Positions 5,709 through 28,834 of a stretch of DNA of 33,113 bases are shown one piece after another. The stretch spans positions 1 to 33,113 of IMG/VR virus record IMGVR_UViG_3300048928_000655, one strand, 5' to 3'. The notes under the pieces were generated by a model that searched no databases, was not told the origin of the DNA, and saw only the letters and a program-made list of their open reading frames with translations. The translations under genes and the position numbers were made by a program. Each line of letters opens with the position of its first letter. The first letter of the stretch is position 1. The stretch comes from a virus.

Positions 5709-7810
5709 TTTTCCTCCTTCGCGGTAGCGGTGTTCTTTTCTGCGGCCAGTTGTTCCGGCGTCTTGAACGGCCATGCGGACTTGGAAGGAGCCACCGGCTT
5801 GCTCAATGCGAACTCTGCAGCGCCGGCTTCGCGTTCAAACTTGGCGCGCTGAGCGCGACCGATGTTCCAGTGATCGTGCGTCGGCTCGGTCAGCGGGTAG
5901 GGATTCTCTTTCGACAGGTCGGTGCAGTCGTAGCCCTCCTTGTATGCAGGCTGCTTGTCCACATCAACCATGGACCAGTCCTGTTTCTTCGGATCTGCCG
6001 CAGGCGTCGCGGCGGGAGGGGTAGCTGCGGCGGGCTTGGCCGTTGCAGCAGCCTTCTTCGCCTTCGCAGGCGCTTTTGTTGCTGCAGGCTTAGCTGCCGC
6101 AGCGGTAGTCTTTGGTGCGGCGGCGTGAGCGTCGCTCTTGGCCCCTTTCGGTGTGGCAGTAGCGGGCTTCTTCTCCTTCTCCTTGGCCGCTGCCTTGATG
6201 CGTTCTGCGCGGAGCTTGCTGTTCGCTGCAGCCGTAGCTTCGGCCTTGTGTTGAGCTTTTGTCTTCGCCGCGTCGACGCCGTGTCGTTTTGCTGCCTCTG
6301 CCAGATCCGTAGGCATGTCGTCGTTATTGTTGTAGTAGCTGTTTGCTTGCGTGGAGCCGAAGATCGAAGCCGTCCAGATGACGTCTGCCAGTTGGCCAGT
6401 GCTGAGCGACAACAGCTTCTCTGCAAGTTCCTTTCGGCCTTCGTAGGTTGCAAGGCTGACGTCCCAACCAAGATACTTGACCAGCTTGCGGAGCGTGTTG
6501 TTCTCAGTGCGATGCAAGACATGGGCGCAGACCATCTGCCAGTCTTCAAATTGTGGACCCTTATCTTGCATCTTCGTCCGCACTTGGGAGAGCACGTCGA
6601 GGCGAATTTCTGTATTCAGTTTGGCCTTGCGGATGGCTTCTTTCTCGGATGCGCTCTGAGAGCTGACACTCTTGACCGATACGCCGAGATCCTTCATCAG
6701 GGGCTTGAGATCATCCATGCGGATGACTTCGACGACGTCCTGCGTGTGTGGGTTCCGGGCGACGATTGGGTCAATGCCAGCGGCCTTGGCGAGCTGAGCA
6801 AAGGTGCGTTTCTTAGGATCGGAATAGCAGGTGTCAGATGGCTTTTCAAAGCCGTCGCCCAGCGATGAATAGTATTGCGGGAATATCTTCTTTGCCGCAG
6901 TTGAGTCTTCGATGACGACACGGCCTGCTTCCTTGGCCCTGTTGATCTTTATCGTCGACCAGGCGGAACGCTTTTGTGCGAAGCAGGCGGTGTCCGTGCA
7001 GACGTCTGCACTGTCGACATCTGGAAACAAGTCAGGGTTGTTACCCGTACGCTTCGTGCACGTTGTGCACGCGCCGACCTTCGGCAGTAGCTTCTCGTCT
7101 TTGGGATTGAAGGGAGCCTCTTTCAATTTCAACATGAACTTGCGCTGGATGGTTGCGATAGCCACACGCTGAGAGACTGGGTCTCGGTTCTTATTGCCGG
7201 CAATATCCTCGCATGCCTCCATTTGCAACTTCGCTCCTGGGATCCGCGCAATCAGAACGGCCAGCGACGGCGTGAGACTTTTTGCGTAGAACAGTTTGCG
7301 AGCGCCATCGCACAAGTCCAGCAGCTTCATGCTCGCGTCGACGTATGCCTTGCTGCGGTTGATCTTGGCTGCAAGGTCGACGCGTTTGTACCCGTAGGTT
7401 TTGATCAGTTGCTCGAAACCCTCTGCTTCCTCCAATGGATGAAGGTCGCGCCGCTGCAGGTTTTCCAGCACCTGAATTTCATACACTTGCTGATCCGTCA
7501 GGGTGCGAATCAGAACCGGAATCTTCGTGAGGCCTGCGATGCCGGATGCTCTCCAGCGCTGCTCGCCAGCTACCACTTCCAAGTCTTGCGGCTCGGCCTT
7601 AGTCGGGGTAACGCGGCGCATCAGAATCGGTTGAATGATGCCGTGATCCTTGATGCTACCTGCCAGTTCTTTCAGGAAGCTGTCGTCGAAGAATTTGCGA
7701 GGATTGGTTTTTGAGGCGCGAGTGCGACTACGCTCTACGATGTCAAACTCATTGTCGTTGACGAGTTCAAATTTGCCATCGATGGCGGGCGTGGTGGTGG
7801 CGATTTCCAT
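5705..7810 (-). CDS. ParB/Spo0J-like nuclease-fold protein (PRTRC ParB-like), large
   Basis: A 701-aa protein with a clear ParB N-terminal domain: NPRK at residues 36-39, GEQRWRA at 82-88 and ENLQRRDLHPLEEA at 116-129, the three conserved boxes that bind CTP in ParB clamps, followed by a helical DNA-binding region (VDLAAKINRSKAYVDASMKLL). A Cys cluster near residues 250-283 (CTTC, then C-x4-C) may bind zinc, as in PRTRC-type ParB proteins. The C-terminal third has a lysine/alanine/proline-rich linker (about 540-630), histone-tail-like, then a short conserved end. No ParA gene is in the window. The ATG at 7810 was chosen for the AAGGA about 7 bases upstream. In known families such proteins load at parS palindromes and spread; one copy of the recurring palindrome lies inside this gene (6996-7011). 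A function in partition, DNA compaction or regulation is open. Confidence 0.85.
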   Translation of the reverse strand: MEIATTTPAIDGKFELVNDNEFDIVERSRTRASKTNPRKFFDDSFLKELAGSIKDHGIIQPILMRRVTPTKAEPQDLEVVAGEQRWRASGIAGLTKIPVLIRTLTDQQVYEIQVLENLQRRDLHPLEEAEGFEQLIKTYGYKRVDLAAKINRSKAYVDASMKLLDLCDGARKLFYAKSLTPSLAVLIARIPGAKLQMEACEDIAGNKNRDPVSQRVAIATIQRKFMLKLKEAPFNPKDEKLLPKVGACTTCTKRTGNNPDLFPDVDSADVCTDTACFAQKRSAWSTIKINRAKEAGRVVIEDSTAAKKIFPQYYSSLGDGFEKPSDTCYSDPKKRTFAQLAKAAGIDPIVARNPHTQDVVEVIRMDDLKPLMKDLGVSVKSVSSQSASEKEAIRKAKLNTEIRLDVLSQVRTKMQDKGPQFEDWQMVCAHVLHRTENNTLRKLVKYLGWDVSLATYEGRKELAEKLLSLSTGQLADVIWTASIFGSTQANSYYNNNDDMPTDLAEAAKRHGVDAAKTKAQHKAEATAAANSKLRAERIKAAAKEKEKKPATATPKGAKSDAHAAAPKTTAAAAKPAATKAPAKAKKAAATAKPAAATPPAATPAADPKKQDWSMVDVDKQPAYKEGYDCTDLSKENPYPLTEPTHDHWNIGRAQRAKFEREAGAAEFALSKPVAPSKSAWPFKTPEQLAAEKNTATAKEEK
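6996..7011. repeat. dispersed palindrome copy 1, GTGCAGACGTCTGCAC
   Basis: A perfect 16-bp palindrome inside the ParB-like gene, at the codons for its Cys-rich segment. It is read there as GCA GAC GTC TGC, a different codon phase from the other genic copies. Same core as positions 8479, 14825, 21996 and 28007. Confidence 0.9.
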
Positions 7811-7838
7811 GTGTTTTCCTTGGTTAGATGATGGGGCG

Positions 7839-8144
7839 TCAGACGTTTTCAGGGACGTAGAAAAGCAAAGCGCCAGAGGCGCCAACGGTGCGGTCGAGGC
7901 GGGGAAGGGTTACGGTGATCTGCCACGCGGTGCTGCCCTGCAGGCGCGGGGCCTGAAGAGCGCGCACCGGGGCGCTGACTTCGTAGCCCTTCGCTTCCAT
8001 GCGAGTGATCACCTTCGCAAGCGAGTTGGATTCGTCGCGAAGCAGGAGAGCGCCATGAGCTGCGCCGGCGTCGATTGCGTCGCTCAATGCCTGGATGGTG
8101 ATCAGGGCGGCCGGCGCTGGCATAAGAGGATGGTCCCGGCTCAT
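7839..8144 (-). CDS. small phage protein of unknown function
   Basis: A 101-aa protein with no recognised domain; alternating helical and strand segments, no Cys pairs and no membrane segment. The ATG at 8144 (MSRDHPLMPAP) is chosen because it overlaps the upstream stop by ATGA; the longer in-frame extension is a shadow of the neighbouring gene. It ends 28 bases before the ParB-like start, the only true gap in this operon, and that gap holds the ribosome binding site of the ParB-like gene. Confidence 0.68.
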   Translation of the reverse strand: MSRDHPLMPAPAALITIQALSDAIDAGAAHGALLLRDESNSLAKVITRMEAKGYEVSAPVRALQAPRLQGSTAWQITVTLPRLDRTVGASGALLFYVPENV

Positions 8145-8437
8145 TGATCGCTCCGCTTGGCGGTGGCCGTAGAGCTGCAAGCGCGCTGCCGCGCTATGAC
8201 GCCATCGGCTGTGTCTGGCCAAGCCTGATTGCAGATCTCCACCAGCTGTGCCTGGACGACTGGCGTGAGCTTGGGAATGCGAGCGGCCATGATGCCGTGC
8301 GACACCCCTCGCTTATATGCGTTGGTGACGCGTTCGATCTCTTCGTATCGGTGAAAGCGGTTGTAGATGACAAGCAGCACCAGGATGACGACGGCTGCAA
8401 TCACGGTATCGATCAGGATTTGACGGATGCGGTTCAT
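8141..8437 (-). CDS. small single-pass membrane protein
   Basis: A 98-aa protein. One strongly hydrophobic stretch close to the N-terminus (TVIAAVVILVLLVIY, about residues 9-23) follows a short basic start (MNRIRQ), predicting an inner-membrane anchor with a cytoplasmic N-terminus and a soluble C-terminal domain. The position in the early lysogenic operon would fit a superinfection-exclusion or regulatory membrane protein, but that is only inference from context. The ATG at 8437 overlaps the upstream stop (ATGA). Confidence 0.7.
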   Translation of the reverse strand: MNRIRQILIDTVIAAVVILVLLVIYNRFHRYEEIERVTNAYKRGVSHGIMAARIPKLTPVVQAQLVEICNQAWPDTADGVIARQRACSSTATAKRSDQ

Positions 8438-8574
8438 AGTGGTCTCACGAATGTGGCACACAGGCCGAAGCGGTCGAATGCAGACGTCTGCACATCGAAG
8501 CTGGACCGTGCGATTGCGGGATAAGCCCAGCGCTGGCCGGACTCGGTGGTGACGGTGATATGGAAGGCTTTCAC
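8434..8574 (-). CDS. very small phage protein (46 aa)
   Basis: Starts with GTG at 8574, overlapping the upstream TGA (GTGA). The protein begins VKAFHITVTTESG and contains SSFDVQTSAFDRFG; small proteins of this type are common in the early regions of betaproteobacterial prophages, function unknown. Part of the coding sequence is the dispersed palindrome (8479-8492), here read as CAG ACG TCT GCA (QTSA). A longer in-frame version from 8658 was rejected because it runs fully through the neighbouring gene. Confidence 0.6.
   Translation of the reverse strand: MKAFHITVTTESGQRWAYPAIARSSFDVQTSAFDRFGLCATFVRPL
8479..8492. repeat. dispersed palindrome copy 2, TGCAGACGTCTGCA
   Basis: A perfect 14-bp palindrome inside the 46-aa gene. 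The flanking bases (A on the left, C on the right) do not extend the symmetry, so this is the shortest of the five copies and defines the common core. Confidence 0.9.
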
Positions 8575-8747
8575 GATGCCGCCTTGGTACGGACGCAACT
8601 GACGCAGACGCCGTATTGGTGCAGTTGCTTGACGGTGATCTGCTTGCCGCAGTCGCAACGCCGGCGGTTATGGACGTACGGCGGTTTGCTTGCTGCAGTG
8701 GCGGCGCGGAAGAGTTCCGTGCTGAGAGGAGTGAAGCCGATGATCAT
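8571..8747 (-). CDS. small zinc-ribbon-like phage protein (58 aa)
   Basis: A 58-aa protein with CDC and CVSC pairs in its second half (RRRCDCGKQ...GVCVSC), spaced as in small zinc ribbons, and a basic surface that suggests nucleic-acid or protein binding. The ATG at 8747 overlaps the upstream stop (ATGA). No specific function is recognised. Confidence 0.62.
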   Translation of the reverse strand: MIIGFTPLSTELFRAATAASKPPYVHNRRRCDCGKQITVKQLHQYGVCVSCVRTKAAS

Positions 8748-9043
8748 GCTGGCTCCAGTTCGCGGGCCGTAGCTGGCAGGAACAGTTCCAGGATGCGCTT
8801 CTCGCCGGAGTACTCGATGGGAGGGTCTTTGCGACGCAGGTGCTGTTCTTGGACGACATAGATGCCTGCGCGGCAACGGACCACGTAACCCATGACATAG
8901 CCCGGCTGGCCAGACTGGCAGTCGTACGCAGCATGACGTCCGTATGCCTCTTGGACGATGCACTCCTCTCCGTTCAAGCGCTCAAGTGGCGCGGTCAACT
9001 TCTGAAGAAGGCACAGCTCGTCAACGCGAAACCGGCCGTTCAT
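8744..9043 (-). CDS. small phage protein of unknown function
   Basis: A 99-aa protein (MNGRFRVDELCLLQKL...). The pattern of short beta-like segments around EECIVQEAYG, YVMGYVVRC and YVVQEQHLRRK suggests a small beta-barrel fold similar to SH3-like phage proteins; no function can be given. The ATG at 9043 overlaps the preceding stop by ATGA, and the end overlaps the next start by ATGA. Confidence 0.65.
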   Translation of the reverse strand: MNGRFRVDELCLLQKLTAPLERLNGEECIVQEAYGRHAAYDCQSGQPGYVMGYVVRCRAGIYVVQEQHLRRKDPPIEYSGEKRILELFLPATARELEPA

Positions 9044-9237
9044 TTCGCACCTCGCTTGGCCGGCGTGATTAGCTTCTTGAGGTCTACCTTGTCGGCAAGG
9101 ATACGGCTGGGGCTGGATGGCAGCGCCCAATAGCGACGGTTCGTGTTGGGTAGGAAATCCTTACGACCCGTTGACTGCAGGAAGTTGATACGACTTGGCA
9201 ACTGGAAGGCTGCCGCTTTCACTTTTGAGGATGGCAT
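9040..9237 (-). CDS. first gene of leftward operon, 65-aa basic protein
   Basis: A 65-aa basic protein (many Lys/Arg, no Cys, no membrane segment) of unknown function. GGAG stands about 7 bases before the ATG and lies inside one arm of an 11-bp inverted repeat (9240-9270). It is the promoter-proximal gene of the leftward operon, so it would be the first protein made from the left promoter; in lambda this place belongs to early regulators such as N, but no arginine-rich N-like motif is obvious. Confidence 0.68.
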   Translation of the reverse strand: MPSSKVKAAAFQLPSRINFLQSTGRKDFLPNTNRRYWALPSSPSRILADKVDLKKLITPAKRGAK

Positions 9238-9239
9238 TG

Positions 9240-9270
9240 TTCGCTCCGATGGTTAGGACATCGGAGCGAA
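9240..9270. promoter_or_regulatory. 11-bp inverted repeat over start of leftward transcript and RBS
   Basis: Arms TTCGCTCCGAT (9240-9250) and ATCGGAGCGAA (9260-9270) are perfect complements separated by 9 bases. It covers the ribosome binding site of the 65-aa gene and reaches the -10 box of the left promoter. It could act as a DNA operator, or as an RNA hairpin hiding the GGAG if the transcript starts further upstream. Confidence 0.6.
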
Positions 9271-9298
9271 GTATCACTCTAGTGATTTTATGTGTCAA
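9270..9298 (-). promoter_or_regulatory. left early promoter (PL-like)
   Basis: On the minus strand, TTGACA (9298-9293) is followed after 17 bases by GATACT (9275-9270), a perfect -35 and a 4-of-6 -10. The expected start near 9263 leaves a leader of about 26 bases before the 65-aa gene. Two operator-like palindromes overlap the -35 and the spacer/-10, so repressor binding would block it. Confidence 0.7.
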
Positions 9299-9310
9299 CA
9301 CTAAAGTGAT
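9273..9310. promoter_or_regulatory. left operators OL (two sites)
   Basis: Site 1, ATCACTCTAGTGAT (9273-9286), is a perfect palindrome between -35 and -10 of the left promoter. Site 2, AACACTAAAGTGAT (9297-9310), matches with one changed base and overlaps the -35. They share the half-site ATCACT with three sites upstream of the Cro-like gene. Confidence 0.72.
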
Positions 9311-9355
9311 ATTTAGTGTGATTTTTTCAGGAGGGTAGGGTGAGAATCCGCCGTA

Positions 9356-9751
9356 CTACTTCGTATGCCGTCGCTCTGACAGTTCGGCGATTAATTCAGA
9401 GTTGGCTTGTTTCTGGTCTTCAAGATTCTTGAAGAACTCGTCTTGTTGCTTCTTAGTGAGTCCATCAAACAGCGTGAGAATTGCTTTTTGACGCTCCGAC
9501 AAACTTCCCCCGTCGGCTGTGTGCGCATCGTTTGCTGCAGACGGGATCTCGGTTTCTGCGCGCAGATACTCCGGGCTGACCTCCAAAGCATTGGCGATAT
9601 CGACCAGGCTCTCCCCGTAGCCTCTTAGTCCCGATTCAATATTGCCAATCGTCCCTTGTGACACGCCTGCTTTTAGGGCGAGCTGCGCCTGCGTTAGTTT
9701 TCTTAACTTCCGCGTGTCCTTGAGTCGTTTTCCGATGATGTTCGTCGTCAT
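9356..9751 (-). CDS. CI-like repressor, XRE-family, without peptidase domain
   Basis: A 131-aa protein with an N-terminal XRE helix-turn-helix (about residues 8-62: GKRLKDTRKLRKLTQAQLALKAGVS, then TIGNIESG) and a short C-terminal helical tail (ERQKAILTLFDGLTKKQQDEF). It should hold the lysogenic state by binding the ATCACTNNAGTGAT operators on both sides of its gene. Unlike lambda CI it has no S24/LexA self-cleaving domain, so direct RecA-driven autocleavage is not expected; induction would need another route. No Shine-Dalgarno sequence precedes the ATG, and a TTTAAT box lies only 5 bases upstream, so the message may be leaderless. It is divergent from the Cro-like gene. Confidence 0.85.
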   Translation of the reverse strand: MTTNIIGKRLKDTRKLRKLTQAQLALKAGVSQGTIGNIESGLRGYGESLVDIANALEVSPEYLRAETEIPSAANDAHTADGGSLSERQKAILTLFDGLTKKQQDEFFKNLEDQKQANSELIAELSERRHTK

Positions 9752-9756
9752 GAGGA

Positions 9757-9762
9757 ATTAAA
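9757..9762 (-). promoter_or_regulatory. candidate -10 of repressor promoter (PRM-like)
   Basis: TTTAAT on the minus strand, overlapping the edge of operator site 3 and ending 5 bases before the repressor ATG. No good -35 is visible at 16-18 bp, as expected for a weak promoter that depends on activation. Only the -10 is supported. Confidence 0.4.
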
Positions 9763-9811
9763 TCACTTCAGTGAATCACTTAGGTGTTGACCAAATAATC
9801 ACTAGAGTGAT
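9762..9811. promoter_or_regulatory. right operators OR (three sites)
   Basis: Site 3 ATCACTTCAGTGAA (9762-9775), site 4 ATCACTTAGGTGTT (9775-9788, weaker right half) and site 5 ATCACTAGAGTGAT (9798-9811, perfect). Sites 3 and 4 abut; site 4 touches the -35 and site 5 lies in the spacer of the right promoter; site 3 touches the repressor -10. This matches a three-operator lambda-like switch. Confidence 0.75.
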
Positions 9812-9816
9812 TTAAT
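9787..9816 (+). promoter_or_regulatory. right early promoter (PR-like)
   Basis: TTGACC (9787-9792), 18-bp spacer, TTTAAT (9811-9816). Transcription would start about 7 bases later, at or beside the ATG at 9823, so the Cro-like message would have little or no leader. Operators 4 and 5 overlap it. Confidence 0.65.
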
Positions 9817-9822
9817 GCGGGC

Positions 9823-10092
9823 ATGAAACCTCTGGATAAAGCCATTGAACTAGCGGGTGGGGTCACCAAACTCGCGGAAGCCTTGGGGCAGGGACAGTCC
9901 GTCGTCAGCAATTGGCGCGCGCGGGGAACTGTGATCGATCCTAAGAACTGTACTGCCATTGAGCGGCTCACTGCCGGGCAGGTGAGTCGTATCGAATTGC
10001 GGCCGACGGACTGGTGGGAAATATGGCCGGAGCTGATGCCTGTCACTGATCTCTACCCATCCACGCGTGCAGACCAGGGTGCGAGGTCGTGA
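9823..10092 (+). CDS. Cro/YdaS-like DNA-binding protein
   Basis: An 89-aa protein with the YdaS-type helix-turn-helix at its N-terminus: DKAIELAGGVTKLAEALGQGQSVVSNWRARG, then CTAIERLTAGQVSRIELRPTDWWEIWPEL, a layout shared by Cro-like proteins of many proteobacterial prophages. Its position, first gene rightward of the divergent repressor, supports the role of a lytic-switch Cro analogue that would bind the ATCACT operators. No Shine-Dalgarno sequence precedes the ATG. Its last 50 bases overlap a convergent gene on the other strand. Confidence 0.83.
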   Translation: MKPLDKAIELAGGVTKLAEALGQGQSVVSNWRARGTVIDPKNCTAIERLTAGQVSRIELRPTDWWEIWPELMPVTDLYPSTRADQGARS

Positions 10093-10345
10093 TGCGGCCG
10101 GTTAGCTCCATGACGCTGACATTGTCGCCGGGGCGAAGCCTTCCTGTGATGTTCCTAAAGATCAACTCGCTCCCGGCGCTGGCACGTCCGGTCATGGCAA
10201 TCGCTGCTTCGGACGTGAGGACTGCCTCAACGTCATCAAGGTTTGCCTTGATCGCCTGCAGCACGGCGGTCGCTATCACGGGTAGATCGTTGCGGGTGAT
10301 CTTGGACGCGAGATGTACGAGCACCAGGTATTTGGCCGATTCCAT
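10043..10345 (-). CDS. small leftward gene convergent with cro, unknown
   Basis: A 100-aa protein (MESAKYLVLVHLASKITRNDLPVIATAVLQAIKANL...) without a recognised domain; the first half is helical and the second contains short strands. A strong ribosome binding site, GGAGGA, stands about 9 bases before the ATG, the best in this area, which argues that it is a real gene although it is oriented against the rightward early genes. It runs 50 bases into the end of the Cro-like gene tail to tail, so transcription of one interferes with the other. Expressed in the lysogen, it could be a moron or part of the switch; both are inference. Confidence 0.55.
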   Translation of the reverse strand: MESAKYLVLVHLASKITRNDLPVIATAVLQAIKANLDDVEAVLTSEAAIAMTGRASAGSELIFRNITGRLRPGDNVSVMELTGRITTSHPGLHAWMGRDQ

Positions 10346-10431
10346 TTTTCTTATTCCTCCAGTGTTGGATGTGTGGGCGAAGCATAACCACACGCGCAGA
10401 AAAATATAACCACCAGAAAAGGGCATACGTT

Positions 10432-10887
10432 GTGAGTATTCATAAGGCGACACTCGGAATGATCCGAGCAATTGGTTGGGATGCGATGTGCGATAGCCTG
10501 ACCATGACGCGTCAGCAGCTGGAGAATCGGTTGTACGAACGCCGTGGCCAGGGCATTACAGTCGACCTCGCGCTTGAGATGCAAGCGGCAAGTGGGACAG
10601 CGCTGTTTGCTCAGGCCGTAGCGGTCGCCAGCGGCGGCTCGTTCGTCAAGCTGCCTGCCGGCATGGATGGCGACCAGGAGGAGTTGCTCGCCAAGTTCAA
10701 CCGTCTCTATACCCACGTCGGACTGCTGTCGGCTCGGTACGCTGAATACACGGCGGACAACGAAGTCGACAAGCGCGAGCGTGCCGACCTGATCGCGATT
10801 GGCGACGAGATATCACGGGCTACGCAAGAGTTGCTTGCGTTGACATTCCGGACCTTCTGCGCTCCTGATCAAGGGGCGGCCGAGTGA
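10432..10887 (+). CDS. YmfL-like phage regulatory protein
   Basis: A 151-aa protein resembling the YmfL family: HKATLGMIRAIGWDAMC, then LTMTRQQLENRLYERRGQ and VDLALEMQAASGTALFAQAVA, a predicted DNA-binding N-terminal half. In other prophages YmfL follows YdaS/Cro genes and is assumed to be a CII-like regulator of early expression; its precise action is not established. The GTG at 10432 was chosen (VSIHKAT...) with AAGGG about 9 bases upstream; the longer frame from 10369 is unlikely. The end overlaps the helicase start by GTGA. A repeated ATAACCAC (10384 and 10406) lies upstream. Confidence 0.78.
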   Translation: MSIHKATLGMIRAIGWDAMCDSLTMTRQQLENRLYERRGQGITVDLALEMQAASGTALFAQAVAVASGGSFVKLPAGMDGDQEELLAKFNRLYTHVGLLSARYAEYTADNEVDKRERADLIAIGDEISRATQELLALTFRTFCAPDQGAAE

Positions 10888-13394
10888 CGCTTGATGATTT
10901 CCCAGTTGTCGCCGCCGCTGCTCTGCAGTCCATTGATTCGCTGCTCTTTGAATGGTTTCCCAACGGCGTCATTGAGGGCGCGGAGTTTCGTATTGGTTCT
11001 GCTTCCGGCGAAGCCGGCAAATCTCTGAGTGTTCGCCTTCATGGCGAACGCGCAGGTTGGTGGTCAGATTTTTCCATGGACGGCGAAGCCGGCCGTGATC
11101 TCATTTCCCTTTACGCGGTAGCAAAGGGCGTTTCGACTGGGCGAGCCTGCGCGGAACTTGCCTCCCAGCTCGGCGTAGCGATCACCAACGAGGATGGTAC
11201 AAAATCCGTCCCGTCCTTGTTTTCAAAAAATCCACCAAACCGAGCGCCTGCGCAAGCCGGCAAAGGGGTACAAGCCAAGTCCGCGAAGAAACCGGCGACC
11301 GCTTGGGAGCCAATCGTCCCTGTGCCGGACAATGCCCCAGCGTACCCGGCAGCACATCCTATCCGTGGGTTGCCAGAGCGTCGCTGGGAATATCGTGACC
11401 AGGAGCGACGCTTGTTGGGAGTGGTATCGCGCTTCGTGACCTCCGAGGGCGACAAGGACATCATCCCTTGTGTCTACGCGAAGCACCCTGAGACGGGCAA
11501 GTGCGATTGGCGGTGGATTCAGTGGCGCGAACCTCGCCCACTGTACTTGCCGGGACCGCTCGTGCCGGGTCTGCCCGTGCTGGTGGTGGAGGGCGAGAAA
11601 TGCGCCGATGCGGCCTACGCACTGTTCCATGAGACTTGGAACGTAGTGTCGTGGCCGGGCGGCGGCAAGGCCGTCCATAAGGCCGACTGGTCCCCGCTGG
11701 CGGGATATGAAGTGCTGCTGTGGGCAGACGCGGACGCTCAGCTATACAAGGGCAATCACGCGCAAGCAGGCCAGATCAAGCCGGAGTGGGAGCAGCCCGG
11801 TATGAAGGCCATGCACAAGATCGCCGATATCCTGCGCCCGCTCGAATGCCCTGTGTCGTTCGTCGACATTCCTGAGCCGGGCATCAAGCCGGATGGTTGG
11901 GACATCGCGGACCTCATTCATGAAGATGGAGTGACGCCGGAGGACATCGACGCCTGGCTAAACAAACGACGGCCCCAAGCGGATGACGTTGCGGCGTCGG
12001 TCGCACAACAGGCGGAGGCGCCTGCGTCCATGGACGAGATTCCCCCATGGGTTGATGGACCTCCTGATGACGCTGTACCCCTAACCCCAGCTAGCGCGAA
12101 GGCATTGGACTGGCGCGCCCTGCGGGAGCTGATGATTCCGAATAGCTCTGGCGGCGTGAAAGCCTGCCGCGAGAATGTGTTTTTGGCCCTGAAGCATGAT
12201 GCCGCTCTGCAGGGCATTGTGGCTCGCGACACGTTTGCTGAGCTGCAGATGAAGAAACGCTCCCCGCCATGGCAATCGGATGGTGGGGAGTGGAACGAGG
12301 GCGATGACTTCCACCTTGGGATGTATTTGGCGCGGCGGTATGGCCTGGTCATGGCGTCGGTCGGCGAGATCGAGAAAGCCGTGGCGCAAATCGCTCGCGA
12401 GCATTCGTTCAATCCCGTTGCCGACTACATGAACGCCTGCGCCGACAAGTGGGATGGAACAGCTCGCGTTGAAACAGCCTTCGTCACCTATTGGGGTGTA
12501 GAGGATTCTGAATACGTCAGATTGATCTCGACGATGTTCCTGGTCGGCCTTGCCGCCCGGTCGTTCTATCCGGGCGTGAAGCATGACTGCGCGCCGGTGT
12601 TTGAGGGCGGGCAGGGGCGAGGCAAGTCGACCGCGCTCAGCGTACTGGCTGGTGATTGGTATGCGGATACGCCGTTCCGAATGGGCGAGAAAGACGGGTA
12701 CCTGTCTATTCAGGGCGTCCTGCTCTATGAGATCGCCGAGCTGGAGCAATTCAATCGATCCGAGGTCACGGCGGTGAAGGCATTTATGTCGAGCCGGAAT
12801 GACCGCTACCGTGAGCCATATGGCCGCCGCGTGAAGAACGTACCGCGCCGCACCTTGTTCGCTGCGACCACCAACGAGAACCAATACTTCAAAGACCCAA
12901 CCGGCAATCGCCGATTCTGGCCGGTCAACGTCGGCCGCATCGATATCGACAAGCTCACTGCGGACCGTGATCAGCTGTTCGGCGAGGCGGTCCATCTGAT
13001 GCGTGCAAAGACCAAGTGGTATCCGACGCAGGAGCAGCAGATCAGGCTCATCAACGTTCACCAGGAAGACCGGGAGATTCCAGACCCATGGATCGGTCGT
13101 CTGTACGACTACTGCGAAGGCATCGATGGCGAAGGCAGGATCGTGGCCGTCAACCAGCTGGACAAGGTAACCGTCCGTGAGCTGCTGACCAGGGCGTTGC
13201 ACATCGAAATAGGAAAGTTGGGGCCGGCCAAGACGGAGACCATGCGGATTTCTACCTGCATGCGCAAGCTGGGTTGGCGCAAGGACAGGCAGGCATCGGG
13301 TGCGCGGGAATACTTCTACGAACGCATCAAGGAAGAGGCCGTCAGCGTGCAAACGTCGACGGGCGGAGAGGTGGATCATGATCTGCCGCTATAG
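10884..13394 (+). CDS. phage primase/helicase, VapE (VirE) family
   Basis: An 836-aa replication protein. The N-terminal half contains a primase-like part with a Toprim-type core: LVVEGEKC with Glu near residue 236, and the pair D282/D284 in LLWADAD. The C-terminal half is a VapE/VirE-type P-loop domain, Walker A GGQGRGKST at residues 575-583, followed by GVLLYEIAELEQF (Walker B-like) and the family segment TTNENQYFKDPTGNRRFWPV. Such proteins prime and unwind phage or satellite DNA at the origin. The start is GTG, overlapping the upstream TGA by 4 bp. Directly behind it is the CCAACCT/AGGTTGG repeat cluster, so an origin next to its replication protein is plausible. Confidence 0.9.
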   Translation: MTLDDFPVVAAAALQSIDSLLFEWFPNGVIEGAEFRIGSASGEAGKSLSVRLHGERAGWWSDFSMDGEAGRDLISLYAVAKGVSTGRACAELASQLGVAITNEDGTKSVPSLFSKNPPNRAPAQAGKGVQAKSAKKPATAWEPIVPVPDNAPAYPAAHPIRGLPERRWEYRDQERRLLGVVSRFVTSEGDKDIIPCVYAKHPETGKCDWRWIQWREPRPLYLPGPLVPGLPVLVVEGEKCADAAYALFHETWNVVSWPGGGKAVHKADWSPLAGYEVLLWADADAQLYKGNHAQAGQIKPEWEQPGMKAMHKIADILRPLECPVSFVDIPEPGIKPDGWDIADLIHEDGVTPEDIDAWLNKRRPQADDVAASVAQQAEAPASMDEIPPWVDGPPDDAVPLTPASAKALDWRALRELMIPNSSGGVKACRENVFLALKHDAALQGIVARDTFAELQMKKRSPPWQSDGGEWNEGDDFHLGMYLARRYGLVMASVGEIEKAVAQIAREHSFNPVADYMNACADKWDGTARVETAFVTYWGVEDSEYVRLISTMFLVGLAARSFYPGVKHDCAPVFEGGQGRGKSTALSVLAGDWYADTPFRMGEKDGYLSIQGVLLYEIAELEQFNRSEVTAVKAFMSSRNDRYREPYGRRVKNVPRRTLFAATTNENQYFKDPTGNRRFWPVNVGRIDIDKLTADRDQLFGEAVHLMRAKTKWYPTQEQQIRLINVHQEDREIPDPWIGRLYDYCEGIDGEGRIVAVNQLDKVTVRELLTRALHIEIGKLGPAKTETMRISTCMRKLGWRKDRQASGAREYFYERIKEEAVSVQTSTGGEVDHDLPL

Positions 13395-14824: not shown

Positions 14825-14842
14825 GGTGCAGACGTCTGCACC
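14825..14842. repeat. dispersed palindrome copy 3 (18 bp), intergenic
   Basis: GGTGCAGACGTCTGCACC, perfect over 18 bp. The only copy outside a coding sequence; it lies between terminators t1 and t2 at the early/late boundary. Confidence 0.9.
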
Positions 14843-19794: not shown

Positions 19795-21090
19795 ATGAAA
19801 AAGCAACTGTTTGCAATCAAAGCGGTCGTCGCGATTCACATCGCCACGGCCGCTAAATCTTTGGGCAACCACTTACACGCGTACCTGTTCATGTACATGG
19901 CGCGCACCGGGGCGATTCTCTTCGACAACGATCCGGAGCCGATCATGAAGGAGCTGAAACGGATCGGTGAACAGGTCAAGGACGTCGGCGAGAAGGCGCT
20001 CAAGGAAGCGAAAGAAGCCGGCGACATGGGCCGGGAAACAAAACAGAAGGTCGACGAGCTGCTAGTTAAGCAGGGCGAACTGCAGGCCCGTCTGCAGGAA
20101 GCCGAGCAGAAGCTGGATAAGCACCGCCAAGGGGGTGATCCGGCCGAGCATAAGTCGATCGGCTACCAGTTGGTCGAGTCGGAGCAACTGAAAGAGTATG
20201 TCGCCGAGAAGAACTTCAAGAAGAGTTTCAGCTTCCCGGTCAAGGCAATCACAAGCCTTGCCAATAGCGCAGGCGCGGGCGTCGTGGCGGATCGTCTTCC
20301 AGGCGTGATTTCTCTACCAGAACAGCGCCTGACTGTGCGCGATCTGCTGTCGCCCGGCCGTACCGGTTCCAACTTGGTCCAGTACCTGAAGGAAACCGGC
20401 TTCGTCAACAATGCGGCGACGACGGGGGAAGGTGCAAAGAAGCCGCAGTCCAGCATCGCGTACACGCTCACCTCCGCTCCTGTGGTCAAGATTCCGCATT
20501 TCATCAAGGCATCGACAGAAATCCTCTCGGACTTTCCACAGCTGCAGTCGCTGATTGATGTAAAGCTGCGCTACGGATTGGCGCTGGTCGAAGAAGCCCA
20601 GCTGCTGAAGGGATCGGGTGTCGGCAACAACCTCAACGGCATCTACACGCAAGCCACAGCCTTTGTTGCACCGATCGTTGTCGCAGGCGCCACGCGCATC
20701 GACATCTTGCGCCTGGCATTGCTGCAGGCCGAGCTGGCTGAATATCCGTCGACGGGCATCGTACTCAACCCGATGGACTGGGCCGCGATCGAGCTGCAGA
20801 AAGACACGACTGGTGCATACATCTTCGCCAATCCGCAATCGCTGTCGCAGCCGGCGCTGTGGGGGCGTCCTGTCGTGTCGTCGAAGTCGATGACGCAGGA
20901 CGAGTTCCTGGTGGGTGCATTCAAGCTCGGTGCGCAGATTTTCGACCGTGAGCAGGCGCAGGTCACTATCGCGACCGAGAACGAAGACGACTTCATCAAC
21001 AACCTGGTGACCGTCCTTGCTGAAGAACGCCTGGCACTGGCCGACTATCGGCCGGAAGCGTTCGTCAAAGGCGATCTGACACCCGCGTAA
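19795..21090 (+). CDS. major capsid protein (HK97 fold)
   Basis: A 431-aa capsid precursor. The N-terminal part (about residues 45-115) is a charged, coiled-coil-like delta domain (KELKRIGEQVKDVGEKALKE) that acts as scaffold and is removed by the protease; the mature part follows from the segment about residue 150 on and includes TEILSDFPQLQSLID, ALVEEAQLLKGSG and LNPMDWAAIEL. The start at 19795 has GAGGAA before it. The first 45 residues upstream of the delta domain are unusual but resemble other betaproteobacterial phage capsids. Confidence 0.92.
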   Translation: MKKQLFAIKAVVAIHIATAAKSLGNHLHAYLFMYMARTGAILFDNDPEPIMKELKRIGEQVKDVGEKALKEAKEAGDMGRETKQKVDELLVKQGELQARLQEAEQKLDKHRQGGDPAEHKSIGYQLVESEQLKEYVAEKNFKKSFSFPVKAITSLANSAGAGVVADRLPGVISLPEQRLTVRDLLSPGRTGSNLVQYLKETGFVNNAATTGEGAKKPQSSIAYTLTSAPVVKIPHFIKASTEILSDFPQLQSLIDVKLRYGLALVEEAQLLKGSGVGNNLNGIYTQATAFVAPIVVAGATRIDILRLALLQAELAEYPSTGIVLNPMDWAAIELQKDTTGAYIFANPQSLSQPALWGRPVVSSKSMTQDEFLVGAFKLGAQIFDREQAQVTIATENEDDFINNLVTVLAEERLALADYRPEAFVKGDLTPA

Positions 21091-21128: not shown

Positions 21129-21144
21129 GCAACAGGAGAGAAGC

Positions 21145-21558
21145 ATGGATATTAAGGTGAAAGCACTGCAGTCGTTCGTTCACGGCCGCTTGGGCATGTC
21201 CAAGGGGACGGAGCAGCTGGTCGCGGAGGCGATTGCGAAGGATCTCGTTAAAGCCGGCCTGGTCGTCGCAGCTAGCCCGGATGTGGCTGCGCAGAAGAGG
21301 GTTGCGGCAGACAAGCCCACTGGCGAGAAAGCGTCGAGCGGAAGCCGGAAGAAACCCGCACAGGGCGGCGACAAGGAGCCGTCCAGCAAGCCACCTGCTG
21401 GCAGCACCGAGGGCGGCACTGAACCCGGCACTGAAGGCGGCACCGAAACCGGCACCGAGGGCGGCACCGATACCGGTACCGAAACCGGTACCGAAACCGG
21501 TACCGAAACCGGTACCGAAGGCAGCACCGAGTCGAAAGACCAGAGCGAGGAGCAGTAA
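21145..21558 (+). CDS. head-region protein with variable acidic repeat tail
   Basis: A 137-aa protein. The first 45 residues (MDIKVKALQSFVHGRLGMSKGTEQLVAEAIAKDLVKAGLV) look folded and match a small protein type found between capsid and connector genes, function unknown. The remaining part is low complexity: a Lys/Ser/Gly linker then eleven tetrapeptides of the GTE type. AGGAGAG lies a few bases before the ATG. An exposed or flexible head decoration or adaptor is possible; nothing shows it directly. Confidence 0.72.
   Translation: MDIKVKALQSFVHGRLGMSKGTEQLVAEAIAKDLVKAGLVVAASPDVAAQKRVAADKPTGEKASSGSRKKPAQGGDKEPSSKPPAGSTEGGTEPGTEGGTETGTEGGTDTGTETGTETGTETGTEGSTESKDQSEEQ
21400..21531 (+). repeat. 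12-bp tandem repeat, eleven units in frame
   Basis: Units encode GSTE, GGTE, PGTE, GGTE, TGTE, GGTD, TGTE four times, GSTE. Three copies in a row (21475-21510) are identical at DNA level (GGTACCGAAACC). In-frame unit length means copy number can change by slippage without breaking the gene. Confidence 0.9.
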
Positions 21559-21560
21559 CC

Positions 21561-21908: not shown

Positions 21909-22246
21909 TGGCTATTCAGGAACCGCAGATCGGAGAATTGAATCGACGCGTGCAGCTGCGAGTTAGGACTGATGAGCCCTTTGGGGATTCCGACGTTGTG
22001 CAGACGTCTGCACAACAGCGGCCGCGCTGGGCAAAGATCGAACCAGTCGGCAGCGCAGTGTACGCCGGCAGCGTGCAGATCGACCGCAAGGTGACGCACC
22101 GCATCTACATTCGTTTCCTGGACGGCATCACCGATTCGCATGAGGTGTTGTACAAGGCGCAGCTGTTTGCCGTGCGTCGGGTGTCGGATCTGAACGGGGC
22201 GCATCGCTTCACTGTATTGGAGGCGGAGGAGATCCAGCATGGCTAA
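21908..22246 (+). CDS. head closure protein
   Basis: A 112-aa protein with the head closure family pattern (GELNRRVQLRV near the start, then RWAKIEPVGS..., and YIRFLDGITDSHEVLY). It closes the head after packaging and docks the tail. Residues VQTSAQ are encoded by the dispersed palindrome at 21996-22015, which lies at a loop position where length is variable in relatives. Confidence 0.88.
   Translation: MAIQEPQIGELNRRVQLRVRTDEPFGDSDVVQTSAQQRPRWAKIEPVGSAVYAGSVQIDRKVTHRIYIRFLDGITDSHEVLYKAQLFAVRRVSDLNGAHRFTVLEAEEIQHG
21996..22015. repeat. dispersed palindrome copy 4 (20 bp)
   Basis: The longest copy: the GTGCAGACGTCTGCAC core extended by TT on the left and AA on the right, all symmetric. Lies in the head closure gene, read as CAG ACG TCT GCA. 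Confidence 0.9.
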
Positions 22247-22709: not shown

Positions 22710-22717
22710 GCTTTCAC

Positions 22718-24995: not shown

Positions 24996-25016
24996 CGCCA
25001 ACGTCATCGAAGTAAC

Positions 25017-25046
25017 ACGGCCCGGTATATCCGGGCCGTTTCTTTT
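25017..25046 (+). terminator. terminator between sheath and tube genes
   Basis: ACGGCCCGG and CCGGGCCGT form a perfect 9-bp GC-rich stem with a TATAT loop, followed by TTTCTTTTT. It stands 21 bases after the sheath stop and just before the tube gene. Confidence 0.75.
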
Positions 25047-25059
25047 TAGGGAGTCTCAC

Positions 25060-25407
25060 ATGGGACAAAAAACAGCGGGTACCTGCTACGTGAAGGTAGA
25101 CGGTTCCCAACTGACGATCACGGGCGGCTGCGAAGCGCCGCTGATGGACGTCAAGCGCGAGACGATCGTGCCGGGCTTCTTCAAGGAAGAAGACCTGGTG
25201 CCATACGTCAAGGTCGACGCGGTGCACACACCGGACTTTCCGCTGGAGAAGTTGACCACCGGGACCGACATGACGGTCACGGTCGAGTTCAAGAACGGGA
25301 AGGTTTACGTGCTGGCCGGTGCATACATCGTCGGTGAGCCAAACAGCGCGGGCGATGACGGCAAGGTCGCTCTGGAATTCAACGGCATCAAAGGGACATG
25401 GCAATGA
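25060..25407 (+). CDS. tail tube protein (Mu gpM-like)
   Basis: A 115-aa protein that polymerises to the inner tail tube. Family pattern: GTCYVKVDGSQLTITGGCEAPL, then VPYVKVDAVHTPDFPLEKLTTGTDMTVTVEFKNGKVYVL. The normal length is as in Mu. AGGGAG stands upstream. It overlaps the next start by ATGA. Confidence 0.9.
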   Translation: MGQKTAGTCYVKVDGSQLTITGGCEAPLMDVKRETIVPGFFKEEDLVPYVKVDAVHTPDFPLEKLTTGTDMTVTVEFKNGKVYVLAGAYIVGEPNSAGDDGKVALEFNGIKGTWQ

Positions 25408-25679
25408 AACTGAAAAAACCGATTACCGCTCATGGCGATGAGGTTACCGAAATCACTCTCAAAGAGCCGACCGGGCAAGACTGCCGGGCGGTCGGTGGAC
25501 TGCCGTACTCGATTGCGGCGGACGAAACTGTTTCCATCAATGCCGCTGTGGCGATGAAGTATATCGGCCGTTGCGCCGGCCTTCCGCCGTCATCTGTCGA
25601 TCAGATTTGTCCGTCCGATCTCAACACGCTGTGCTGGGAGATCGCGGGTTTTTTCTTGAGCGAGACCTCCGCAACGTAG
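25404..25679 (+). CDS. tail assembly chaperone, short form (Mu gp41-like)
   Basis: A 91-aa chaperone: MKLKKPITAHGDEVTEITLKEPTGQDCRAVGG and a helical C-terminal part, pattern of the Mu gp41 / tail assembly chaperone family. ATG 25404 was chosen since it overlaps the tube stop (ATGA) and has AGGG at a good distance; ATG 25398 is too close to it. It ends at TAG 25677-25679. In -1 frame a second coding stretch continues to 25825. Confidence 0.86.
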   Translation: MKLKKPITAHGDEVTEITLKEPTGQDCRAVGGLPYSIAADETVSINAAVAMKYIGRCAGLPPSSVDQICPSDLNTLCWEIAGFFLSETSAT

Positions 25680-25825
25680 ACGAGCTGATCGACCTGGCGT
25701 TCAACTGCGCGGACTTCTGGCGGGTTGATCCCGAAGTGGAATTGACCCGTCCCATCTCCGTAATCATGCAACACAACGCCCAGGCATGGCGTCTCGCTCA
25801 ATCAAGGAAGAACGATGGCCGATAA
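25404..25825 (+). CDS. tail assembly chaperone, frameshifted long form
   Basis: Reading in frame through G GGT TTT at 25646-25652 and then slipping back one base continues as FLERDLRNVDELIDLAFNC and on to QAWRLAQSRKNDGR, stop 25823-25825. The long form has 140 residues: 83 shared and 57 from the -1 frame. The ratio of short and long forms sets tape measure binding during tail assembly in lambda and relatives; in this phage only the sequence and gene position support it. The end overlaps the tape measure start. Confidence 0.75.
25646..25652 (+). other. -1 slippery heptamer GGGTTTT
   Basis: Canonical X XXY YYZ pattern in the frame of the chaperone gene (G GGT TTT). The -1 frame from here is open for 57 codons up to the tape measure gene. 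Confidence 0.78.
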
Positions 25826-27602
25826 GTTTCAACTGAAGGCGCTGATCACAGGCGTCGACAAGTTGTCGCCTGCGCTGGCCGGTATCAGAAAGAACGTCGC
25901 GCAGTTCCGCAAGCAACTGAAGACGAGCAGCCTTGGCGACAAAATCTCCTTCGGCGAACTGCTGCAGGGCGGCGCTCTCGCGCTGCCGTTCATCGCAGGC
26001 GCCAAAGCCGCCATCGACTTCGAGTCGGCGATGGCTGACGTGCGCAAGGTGGTCAATTTTGATTCGCCGCAGCAGTTCAAAGACATGAGCAAGGACGTGC
26101 TGGATCTGTCCAAGCGCCTGCCGATGGCTGCAAAGGATATCGCCGCGATCGTCGCGGCCGGTGGGCAGGCCGGGTTCGATAAGAGCGAGCTGGGCCGCTT
26201 CGCCGAGGATGCCGTCAAGATGGGCGTCGCGTTTGACCAAGGTGCTGGCGAGGCCGGCGAGATGATGGCGAAGTGGCGCACGGCGTTCCGCATGACGCAG
26301 GACGAGGTGGTATCGCTGGCGGACAAGATTAACTACCTCGGCAACAACGGTCCTGCCAAAGCAAAGCAGATATCAGCCATCGTGACGCGGATTGGTCCGC
26401 TGGCCGAGGTGGCGGGACTTGCTTCTGGTCAGATTGCAGCAATGGGCGCGACGCTGGCCGGTGTCGGTATTCAGGAGGATGTCGCGGCCACTGGCATGAA
26501 GAATTTCTTCTTGACCCTGACGGCTGGCGCATCCGCTACCAAGCAGCAAAAGGAAACGTTCAAGGCGCTCCGCATGGACGCGAAGACCCTCGCGAAAGAC
26601 ATGCAGAAAGATGCGCAGGGGACGATGCTCCGAGTCTTGACGGCCATCAGCAAGGTCGACAAGTCAAAGCAGGCTTCGGTGCTGCAGCAGCTGTTTGGAC
26701 GGGAGTCCATTGAAGCGATCGCGCCACTGCTTACCAACCTGTCCCTGCTGACCGGAAATCTTGAGAAGGTCGGCGACGTGACGAAGTATGCCGGGTCCAT
26801 GAACCAAGAGTATGCATCGCGGGCGGCAACCACGGCAAACAACATCCAATTGTTCACCAATCGCGTGGTCGCCTTGGGGATCAACGTCGGCAACATTCTT
26901 TTGCCGCCGCTGAATTCGTTCTTGGCCGTGGCCGCACCCATGATTGAAATGGTGGCGAGTCTGGCGAGCGCTTGCCCATGGCTGACCAAGGGCATTCTTG
27001 GAGCTGCGGTGGGGTTCGGCGTCCTGCGTCTGGCTGTACTTGCGGCGACGATCGCTTCCAAGATGTTCTTGGCGGTGACGAGCCTGACGCCGATTGGCCT
27101 TGCTGTGCGCCTCTTGGCCTTGGCCGCCGGCTTCCTGATCGCAAACTGGCGATACATCGGCCCCTTCTTTGCTGCGCTGTGGGAGGGTGTTAAGGCCGTC
27201 TTCAGTGCCGGATGGGAGTTGGTTAAAACCATCTTCGGATTCTCTCCGCTCGGCATGATCATCGCCAACTGGGAGCCGATTGTTGCCTGGTTCAAGGGGA
27301 TGTGGGAACGAATCCGACCTTACGTGCAGCCGCTGATTGACGGCTTCAAGTGGGTCACAGGCAGCAGCGACAAGCTGAAGCCTGCGGGCGGCGCTCCGGG
27401 ACAGGGCGCGGATCCTGCGGCGTGGCGGCAACAGGTCATTGCAGGCCAGGCTGGCCAGCCACAGCTTAAGGGGGACATGGTGGTGCGGTTTGAGAACGCG
27501 CCTCCAGGCATGCGCGTCGACCCAGCGCAAACCAATCAGCCAGGATTGTCGGTAACACCACGCGTGGGATATCGCACGCTAGGAATGGGGACAAACAAAT
27601 GA
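25815..27602 (+). CDS. tape measure protein (TP901 family)
   Basis: A 595-aa protein that sets tail length and is a plug in the tube. N-terminal part with the TP901 pattern: FESAMADVRKVVNF at about residue 70, KDIAAIVAAGGQAG, MMAKWRTAFRMTQDEVVSLADKIN. Hydrophobic segments follow in the second half (about 390-445), as common in tape measures. At 595 residues it would give a shortish tail. It overlaps the long chaperone form by 11 bases. Confidence 0.92.
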   Translation: MADKFQLKALITGVDKLSPALAGIRKNVAQFRKQLKTSSLGDKISFGELLQGGALALPFIAGAKAAIDFESAMADVRKVVNFDSPQQFKDMSKDVLDLSKRLPMAAKDIAAIVAAGGQAGFDKSELGRFAEDAVKMGVAFDQGAGEAGEMMAKWRTAFRMTQDEVVSLADKINYLGNNGPAKAKQISAIVTRIGPLAEVAGLASGQIAAMGATLAGVGIQEDVAATGMKNFFLTLTAGASATKQQKETFKALRMDAKTLAKDMQKDAQGTMLRVLTAISKVDKSKQASVLQQLFGRESIEAIAPLLTNLSLLTGNLEKVGDVTKYAGSMNQEYASRAATTANNIQLFTNRVVALGINVGNILLPPLNSFLAVAAPMIEMVASLASACPWLTKGILGAAVGFGVLRLAVLAATIASKMFLAVTSLTPIGLAVRLLALAAGFLIANWRYIGPFFAALWEGVKAVFSAGWELVKTIFGFSPLGMIIANWEPIVAWFKGMWERIRPYVQPLIDGFKWVTGSSDKLKPAGGAPGQGADPAAWRQQVIAGQAGQPQLKGDMVVRFENAPPGMRVDPAQTNQPGLSVTPRVGYRTLGMGTNK

Positions 27603-28834
27603 GTGATTGGAGAAAGCGCCTGCAGCCGGCGTCGTTTCGCGGTGTGCCGTTCAAGGTTGACAGCGATTCGTCGCCGGTCGGGCGGGACGTGGTGGTGCAT
27701 GAGTATCCACGGAAGGACAAGCCTTACGTCGAGGATGCAGGGCGAAAAACACGGGTTTTCCGCTTTCCAGGTTATGTCATAGGGCCGGATTGCTTCGATC
27801 AACGCGATGCGCTGCTCGCGGCGCTGGAGACAGCTGGATCCGGCGAGCTGGTGCATCCGTGGTACGGCCGCATGAAAGTGACGGCCAATGGCGATTGCAC
27901 GGCCTCACATGATCGCCGTGAGGGGGGCATGGTGCGGTTTGACCTTGCGTTCGTAGAAGCGGGAGAGTTGAGCTTTCCCACGGTCAAGCCGAACAATTCC
28001 AAGCAAGTGCAGACGTCTGCACAAGCAGTAAGTACCTCGGCATCGAGCCGCTTTGCGGATGCTCTCGCGCAGGTGAATATGGCGAAGGTGAAAGTCAACA
28101 ACATCACCAGCAGCATTTCCTCAATGTACGCGACGATCAATGACAATCTGCGACCGCTGACGTCACTGTTCTCGTCGACCAGCGGCATGATCAACAGCAT
28201 CATGAATGCGCCGCAGAACATGGCGGGGATGGTGTTCGGTACGTTGAGTGATCTCGAACGCAGCTTCTCCAGCTTCGCCGGCTCCGGCAGTTCTATCGGG
28301 GGCAGTTCTGCAGCGGTGCAGTCCTTTGCGGCAGCACCGTCACCGCCTGGTGCGGATGCGGGAAAGCTGCACAGCGCTCTGGTTGGTCTCCTGCAGGACG
28401 CGTCGATCTACAACGGGTTGCTCGATACGGCGCAGATTCCCGTGGTGTCTGCGCCCGATCCAGCAGGTAGCGTCCCTGATCTGGATACGCAGCTGGCCCA
28501 GCAGCCCGACGGCGTCGATGTGCCAATCACATCGGACATCATCGACGTCCGCGACGGGCTGAATGATGCCATCCATGCCGTGGCGATGTCGGCCGCTGGG
28601 GATCATTACCTGGTGCTGACCGACGCACGACAGGCCGCCAACCTACACCTGTCCAACGTGGCGCGGGCGGGCATACGGTTGATTTCATATTCACCGTTGG
28701 CTACTACGCCGGCACTGGTGCTGGCATACCGGCTTTATGCGGATGCTTCGCGTGCTGGAGAGATAGTTAGTCGAAACAAACTGCGGCACCCCGGCTTCGT
28801 GCCGGCGGTGCCGTTGCAAGTAGCGAGCAAATAA
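27599..28834 (+). CDS. Mu gp43-like DNA circularisation/baseplate protein
   Basis: A 411-aa protein beginning DWRKRLQPASFRGVPFKVDSD and then RRVVVHEYP-like (here GRDVVVHEYPRKDKPYVEDAG), the typical N-terminal domain of the Mu gpN family; the domain is named for DNA circularisation, but in Mu it is a baseplate/tail protein. The central part is Ser-rich, helical (SSISSMYATINDNLRPLTSL). One dispersed palindrome lies at 28007-28022 (VQTSA), just after the N-terminal domain at the linker. Confidence 0.86.
   Translation: MSDWRKRLQPASFRGVPFKVDSDSSPVGRDVVVHEYPRKDKPYVEDAGRKTRVFRFPGYVIGPDCFDQRDALLAALETAGSGELVHPWYGRMKVTANGDCTASHDRREGGMVRFDLAFVEAGELSFPTVKPNNSKQVQTSAQAVSTSASSRFADALAQVNMAKVKVNNITSSISSMYATINDNLRPLTSLFSSTSGMINSIMNAPQNMAGMVFGTLSDLERSFSSFAGSGSSIGGSSAAVQSFAAAPSPPGADAGKLHSALVGLLQDASIYNGLLDTAQIPVVSAPDPAGSVPDLDTQLAQQPDGVDVPITSDIIDVRDGLNDAIHAVAMSAAGDHYLVLTDARQAANLHLSNVARAGIRLISYSPLATTPALVLAYRLYADASRAGEIVSRNKLRHPGFVPAVPLQVASK
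28007..28022. repeat. dispersed palindrome copy 5, GTGCAGACGTCTGCAC
   Basis: A perfect 16-bp palindrome in the gp43-like gene, at the border between the N-terminal domain and the Ser-rich region, read as CAG ACG TCT GCA. Confidence 0.9.

Follow-up and report, generated by a model that had tools for sequence, protein, structure and literature searches.

Palindromic sites and the ParB-family gene of the window

The window analysed here is a single IMG/VR virus record (IMGVR_UViG_3300048928_000655; 33,113 bases). It holds a temperate phage that has a gene for a tail sheath and is adjoined by a RelA/SpoT-family gene. Its features of interest are a gene for an orphan ParB-family protein (parB) and a palindrome scattered over the phage which, judging from the sequence, is very probably the loading site of that protein. 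The palindrome, TGCAGACGTCTGCA, occurs in five exact copies (6997-7010, 8479-8492, 14827-14840, 21999-22012 and 28008-28021), so that a re-count bears out the five perfect copies announced by an earlier sequence-only reading of this DNA; the symmetry extents given there (14, 16, 16, 18 and 20 bp, with one span put at 21996-22015) were slightly off and are corrected in Table 1. Four of the five sites lie within gene frames, the frame of site 2 (8434-8658) being a mechanical open reading frame (ORF), and site 3, which precedes an HNH gene and the terminase genes, is between genes as had been claimed. The parB copy reads S-A-D-V-C-T and three other copies read VQTSA in a different codon phase, in agreement with the two phases proposed earlier. 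The reversed pattern of the palindrome does not occur in the window.

Table 1. Candidate parS-like sites and selected genes of the window (aa, amino acids)
Feature	Position	Strand	Remarks
parS-like site 1, GTGCAGACGTCTGCAC	6996..7011, 16 bp symmetric		within parB, codons D-S-A-D-V-C-T-D of the cysteine knuckle
parS-like site 2	8479..8492, 14 bp symmetric		upstream of parB
parS-like site 3	14825..14842, 18 bp symmetric		intergenic, flanked by two terminator-like stem-loops
parS-like site 4	21995..22016, 22-bp perfect palindrome		head-closure gene, about 0.9 kb past the capsid gene
parS-like site 5	28007..28022, 16 bp symmetric		baseplate hub gene
Orphan ParB-family protein	5705..7810	-	701 aa from ATG at 7810; listed ORF to 7885, 726 aa
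Tyrosine integrase	2393..3619	-	3' end overlaps tRNA-Val at 2374-2450
Excisionase-like protein	3604..4134	-	protein family scan
Second gene after parB	4216..5268	-	function unassigned; homologues near parB in Acidovorax phage Aval and VarioGold
Repressor-like helix-turn-helix protein	9356..9751	-	protein family scans
VapE-type primase/helicase	10884..13394	+	protein family scans
Major capsid protein	19795..21090	+	anchor for the recurrent site position

The ParB-family protein is laid out as a ParB_N fold, a helix-turn-helix (HTH) domain of the HTH_ParB type, a four-cysteine knuckle and a long Ala/Lys-rich tail. It matches PF02195 (E 1.9e-24, 86 bits, cut-off 26.3), PF17762, the HTH_ParB family (E 8.2e-12, 45.6 bits, cut-off 22.6), and, above its cut-off, TIGR00180; the N-terminal fold and the HTH_ParB domain by which the ParB/RepB/Spo0J superfamily is recognised are thus both present. 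Among 116 relatives, the motifs GERRxRA and ENxQRxD of the cytidine triphosphate (CTP) pocket are found in 102 and 106 respectively, and the HTH and CTP-pocket motifs are intact in most. An AlphaFold model of the window ParB (mean predicted local distance difference test score, pLDDT, 79) can be aligned over about 200 residues with structures of ParB, Noc and KorB. Motifs, model and the analogy to these proteins suggest that the phage ParB probably binds CTP, closes as a clamp and slides. Palindromic parS-like sites, presumably recognised by the ParB, lie on the replicon as in ParABS systems. A ParA was not found: family PF13614 has no match in 41 related records other than the window (controls 14 of 14 positive), no ParA family matches the scanned window proteins, and the ParA-binding motif of the ParB N-terminus is seen in none of the 116 ParBs, the window one included. 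Because no ParA was found, the output is probably not partition, and the partition function once suggested for the palindrome finds no support.

Joint occurrence of palindrome and ParB

In viral contigs GTGCAGACGTCTGCAC matches at least 120 stretches, and one control palindrome of the same composition matches none. The palindrome-chosen set consists of the 80 of these stretches that were listed, in 73 records; among these listed matches, 45 of the 73 records encode a PF17762 protein (36 of the 40 records of at least 30 kb and 9 of the 33 below that length). Each of the 45 proteins matches the window ParB, and a ParB alignment search of the other 28 records gave no match. Since one site lies inside parB such a sample is biased, and samples chosen otherwise were therefore added. 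A single-sequence search of viral contigs with the window ParB gave no relatives, so the query used was an alignment of 48 ParBs, 45 of them from palindrome-chosen contigs; it matched 535 relatives, from which 80 records, thus selected by protein, were drawn. TGCANACGTNTGCA is present in 43 of these 80 ParB-chosen records, against 3 for the reversed control, and in 34 of 71 when the nine records shared with the palindrome-chosen set are taken out. In the DNA examined around these genes, parB included, TGCAGACGTCTGCA is the commonest palindromic 14-mer, being found in 29 of the 80 loci with the runner-up in 4. Outside the parB frame, 78 loci (the 80 minus two with identical ParB) hold 14 exact and 22 one-mismatch copies. 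In these loci, 100 palindromes permuted without change of composition yield on average 0 exact and 0.25 one-mismatch copies, with maxima of 0 and 2. Together with the missing reversed pattern in the window, this upholds the claim that the copies are beyond chance.

Two further samples look at the link from the other side. The large terminase of the window served to choose 80 records, and the 33 that reach 20 kb were searched. Two of the 33 encode a full-length relative of the ParB, and in two more the relative is partial or weak. No exact site occurs in the roughly 1.0 Mb examined from the 31 that lack a full-length ParB of this type, 11 of these having been read in part. Presence of the palindrome in phages lacking the ParB, which the sequence-only reading had named as evidence against its idea, was thus seen in none of 31 terminase relatives, as opposed to 43 of 80 ParB-chosen records with the pattern. 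The host sample comprises 300 genomes of one order, centred on a genome from the palindrome scan (G147). The 16-mer is found in eight of them, a phage-type ParB in eight, and both in five, where 0.2 are expected (Fisher p 1.6e-7); the line for ‘phage-type’ was drawn after the scores were seen, with nine matches in eight genomes at E of at most 5e-100 and the rest at 1e-59 or above. Two of these genomes (G319 and G387) each carry three copies of the 16-mer within 35 kb of the phage-type ParB gene, on one contig. With 292 of the 300 genomes devoid of the 16-mer, the equal density across host chromosomes that would have refuted the idea is not what is found. In genome contigs at large the 14-mer has at least 120 loci; a ParB match (one of them weak) accompanies 9 of 120 in the DNA examined, and the 16-mer is present in 7 of these 9 against 28 of the 111 others. 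The 14-mer matches in genome contigs are probably mostly chance.

Selection on the site, its placement and its change in one clade

The site in the phage's own ParB gene, the presence of which had been noticed from the start, covers the codons of the conserved cysteine-knuckle peptide S-A-D-V-C-T-D (SADVCTD), located by pattern in 50 of 78 protein-selected parB genes, the other 28 being left out. The Ser codon before the motif is AGT in 23 of 25 genes and the Gly codon GGT in 11 of 15, against 5.9% and 10.9% in the remainder of the gene; at the motif Ala is written GCA in 41 of 50 (against 13.1%), Asp GAC in 43 of 47 (against 67.5%) and Val GTC in 31 of 43 (against 40.7%). The next Asp, just beyond the palindrome, has ordinary codon usage, and the control Ala of the EEA motif, conserved elsewhere in parB, is written GCC and GCG as usual. 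The exact core is present in 23 of the 50 genes, where their own codon usage predicts 0.47%. Codons are thus skewed to the palindrome, and the DNA must be selected beyond the protein, even if the binomial p-values of the single codons overstate the case because parB genes are related. The earlier assertion that selection on protein sequence cannot explain the copies needs qualifying accordingly: the parB copy does lie on a conserved peptide, though with a choice of codons that reveals a constraint on the DNA as well.

The array was described in 32 contigs, namely the window, Aval, VarioGold and 29 IMG/VR records in which sites had been found beforehand. Their 1.26 Mb contain 130 exact TGCANACGTNTGCA and 30 one-mismatch sites, whereas 80 permuted patterns average 0.15 and 2.9. 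Contigs have two to eight sites, with a median gap of 6.4 kb. When the 25 contigs with at least four merged sites are treated as circles, their spacing is so regular that random placement equals it in none of 2000 simulations by squared gaps and in one of 2000 by largest gap. A site lies inside parB in 26 of the 32 contigs, and 133 of the 160 sites lie outside it. Positions recur: a capsid gene was identified in 20 contigs, and 8 of these have a site no more than 100 bp past it (as many in 0 of 5000 circular shifts); 21 of the 32 have one in the 3 kb upstream of parB (as many in 0 of 3000 shifts). In the window itself, a 12-base tandem repeat of the CGGCACCGAAAC type with about ten copies occupies 21414-21530, a few hundred bases past the capsid gene, in the region where relatives often have a palindrome.

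The site profile has ACGT at its centre and a flanking G in 81% of half-sites. As both strands were averaged and the training sites were near-exact, its symmetry and core are there by construction, and the flanking G is its one new element. Position 5 of the half-site is mostly C in three contigs (0.80, 0.75 and 0.67), against at most 0.33 in the other 29, some of which were chosen by the G form of the site. The ParBs of the three form one clade, with a support of 97 in the Shimodaira-Hasegawa-like approximate likelihood-ratio test (SH-aLRT), and this change of site in a single clade, to GTGCACACGTGTGCAC, speaks for recognition by the ParB. As to the residues behind the C-type site, only weak clade-specific columns were found. 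At the positions known to govern specificity, 173 is R in 74 of the 116 ParBs and K in another 30, 179 is R in 100 and 201 is S in 96; the family mostly has R/K, R, A/D and S at 173, 179, 184 and 201, and the window ParB has K, S, D and S, and so lacks the Q173, K179, K184 and R201 of Noc. From the part of the source available, these four positions switch ParB to Noc specificity, with R173/G201 conserved in ParB and QKKR in Noc (Jalal 2020); the residue set of the phage family is unlike either. Linkage, codon constraint and covariation of the site thus all favour the core idea of the sequence-only reading, a palindrome tied to the phage ParB.

Possible roles of the array

The closest known systems resemble the phage one in part. 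Chromosomal ParB/Spo0J binds parS, TGTTTCACGTGAAACA, with ACGT at its centre, and shares with the phage system the ParB_N fold, HTH_ParB, a 16-bp palindrome centred on ACGT and several sites per replicon. The phage half-site is different, however, and its sites are genome-wide whereas parS sites lie near the origin; and unlike ParB/Spo0J, the phage ParB has a four-cysteine knuckle and a long tail, with no ParA or ParA-binding motif found. Noc, the site of which (the Noc-binding site, NBS) is ATTTCCCGGGAAAT in palindromes dispersed over the replicon, resembles it as a ParB relative without the ParA-binding motif, and the window ParB matches the Noc model TIGR04285 at 131 bits, below its cut-off of 315; the phage gene, its other site and its other specificity residues set it apart. 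The ParB model of PRTRC systems, TIGR03734, matches residues 60-307 at 116.9 bits, again below the cut-off (278.6). The IR1-4 sites of the plasmid prophage N15 are dispersed too. According to the available part of its source, N15 has a temperate-phage ParB-family protein, SopB, with four inverted-repeat (IR) sites, but it is extrachromosomal with active partition, whilst the phage in the window has an integrase and no ParA that was found (PMC7205306). KorB of plasmid RK2, with its OB operator sites on one mobile replicon, is a ParB relative and a CTP-dependent sliding clamp which, unlike the phage protein with its many sites inside genes, acts with KorA at promoters, as far as the accessible text goes (PMC11790492).

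We infer direct binding, CTP switching and sliding for the phage ParB. Its dimers would bind the 16-bp site through the helix-turn-helix, and bound ParB would probably take CTP, close as a clamp and slide onto flanking DNA, like chromosomal ParB, Noc and KorB. Since the early, capsid and tail regions and parB itself all carry sites, at intervals of about 6 kb, clamps could reach the entire genome, and the array would most likely mark, bundle or protect the phage chromosome in early infection or lytic growth. We consider it likely that the palindrome forms a parS-like loading array for the orphan ParB clamp of the same phage, which would organise or mark the phage chromosome. The purpose of the ParB-coated DNA is the least certain part, with genome-wide coating for organisation or protection as the best guess.

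A number of observations weigh against this interpretation. Pfam recognises no C-terminal ParB dimerisation domain in the window ParB, which also has S at 179 where R is usual. The Cys and Thr codons of the parB motif have no significant skew. KorB did not condense its DNA in vitro, as far as the source could be consulted (PMC11790492). The pattern is missing from 37 of the 80 ParB-chosen records, 19 of which have a match at up to two mismatches in the DNA examined. One ParB clade, of 48-58 kb IMG/VR contigs (L308, L313, L314, L320, L321, L333 and L343), has a ParB relative and neither the palindrome nor another clear one; the scan of these seven contigs (G116 only to base 40,000) gave GC-rich words only, with no clear leader, though in a positive control it picked out the known site immediately. 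Of the two terminase relatives with a full-length ParB, G061 has sites and G452 has none, and within the terminase sample alone the link between site and ParB is not significant (p 0.06). Three host genomes have a phage-type ParB without the 16-mer, and three have one copy of the 16-mer without a phage-type ParB. Of the palindrome contigs without ParB, three were assessed and a fourth, G052 (80 kb), was left out: G043 probably ends short of the parB region, and the other two look like real exceptions and not fragments. G059 has two exact and three one-mismatch sites and another gene at the expected place of parB, which may have been replaced recently since palindromes persist elsewhere in the contig. 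In G009, with three exact 14-mer sites, no ParB of this family was found. The frame in G059 (L380/L381; 31589-34621, between repressor and integrase) is of 1011 amino acids, with a P-loop-like stretch and hydrophobic segments; G009 (L375, L376) is a siphophage contig with a lambda-type TerL, a portal and a tail fibre J.

G009 and the three host genomes with a lone 16-mer are what one would expect if the palindrome were bound by a host protein or were a selfish sequence common in the host lineage, an alternative raised by the sequence-only reading itself. Given how rarely the 16-mer is found in host genomes, its absence from the terminase relatives without a full-length ParB and the codon-level constraint sitting in parB itself, this is very improbable. 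The idea that the conserved SADVCTD peptide merely happens to spell the palindrome draws on the parB copy lying exactly on that peptide; as a full explanation it is refuted by the codon skew, which far exceeds what codon usage predicts, and by the many sites outside parB, and we give it practically no credence. Repressor operators spread genome-wide would be in keeping with a temperate phage that has scattered sites, and mycobacteriophage L5 has such dispersed repressor operators, the stoperators; yet the interval between repressor and Cro-like gene has other repeats, of the ATCACT type, and no copy of the palindrome, which makes operators hardly credible.

Partition by ParABS in a plasmid-like prophage stage could appeal to the ParB family, to the parS-like ACGT centre of the palindrome and to the dispersed centromere sites of the N15 plasmid prophage. 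It is nonetheless very unlikely in a phage with an integrase overlapping a tRNA gene, and with neither PF13614 in the related records nor the ParA-binding motif in any of the ParBs. The main rival is long-range regulation of the KorB or VirB kind, by which clamps loaded at dispersed sites would travel to promoters and silence or de-silence phage genes, genome organisation being secondary. The recurrence of sites upstream of parB and past the capsid gene would suit it, and so would the window site at 14825, in an intergenic boundary before the late genes; in the portion of the source at hand, sliding takes KorB to promoters as far as 1.5 kb off (PMC11790492). Most window sites, however, lie in gene frames and none between repressor and Cro-like gene, the median spacing is 6.4 kb, and no KorA-like partner is known here, no search for one having been made; we regard such regulation as unlikely.

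A genome-organising ParB array would be of interest beyond the window. The presence of a ParB cousin and several scattered 16-letter candidate sites in many such phages suggests that these organise or mark their own DNA. Put as a general proposition, which we advance only tentatively, integrating phages would load an orphan ParB genome-wide at private sites and coat their chromosome to mark, condense or shield it, with the recognition sequence kept also in the cysteine-knuckle codons of parB, where it may have arisen. A phage genome coated by clamps over its whole length, if that is what occurs, would represent a novel means of organising or protecting viral DNA. The palindrome points to a concrete DNA target for an orphan phage ParB and likely adds a third specificity to the ParB fold, accompanied by a small series of covarying sites. 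Orphan phage ParBs are already known as a class, and the ParB-like proteins of plasmids and prophages are almost always orphan in the available part of a 2025 survey (PMC12704722). In the literature, as partially covered, neither a description of this site or array, nor the DNA recognised by orphan phage ParBs, nor a reason to keep one without ParA was found; the site or array is absent from the accessible parts of PMC9658991, PMC12704722, PMC7383237, PMC5512222, PMC7205306, PMC9879122 and PMC11790492, and the VarioGold paper, in the part available, names the ParB and not the sites.

As to the remainder of the phage, protein family scans give a leftward order of integrase, excisionase, unknown genes, ParB, small frames and repressor, followed after the repressor by Cro-like, CII-like, VapE primase, HNH, terminase, portal, protease, capsid and tail genes. 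The tRNA-Val overlapped by the 3' end of the integrase gene is the apparent attachment site. Between repressor and Cro-like gene, the repeats at 9751-9823 are of the ATCACT..AGTGAT type and are probably the operators of the repressor.

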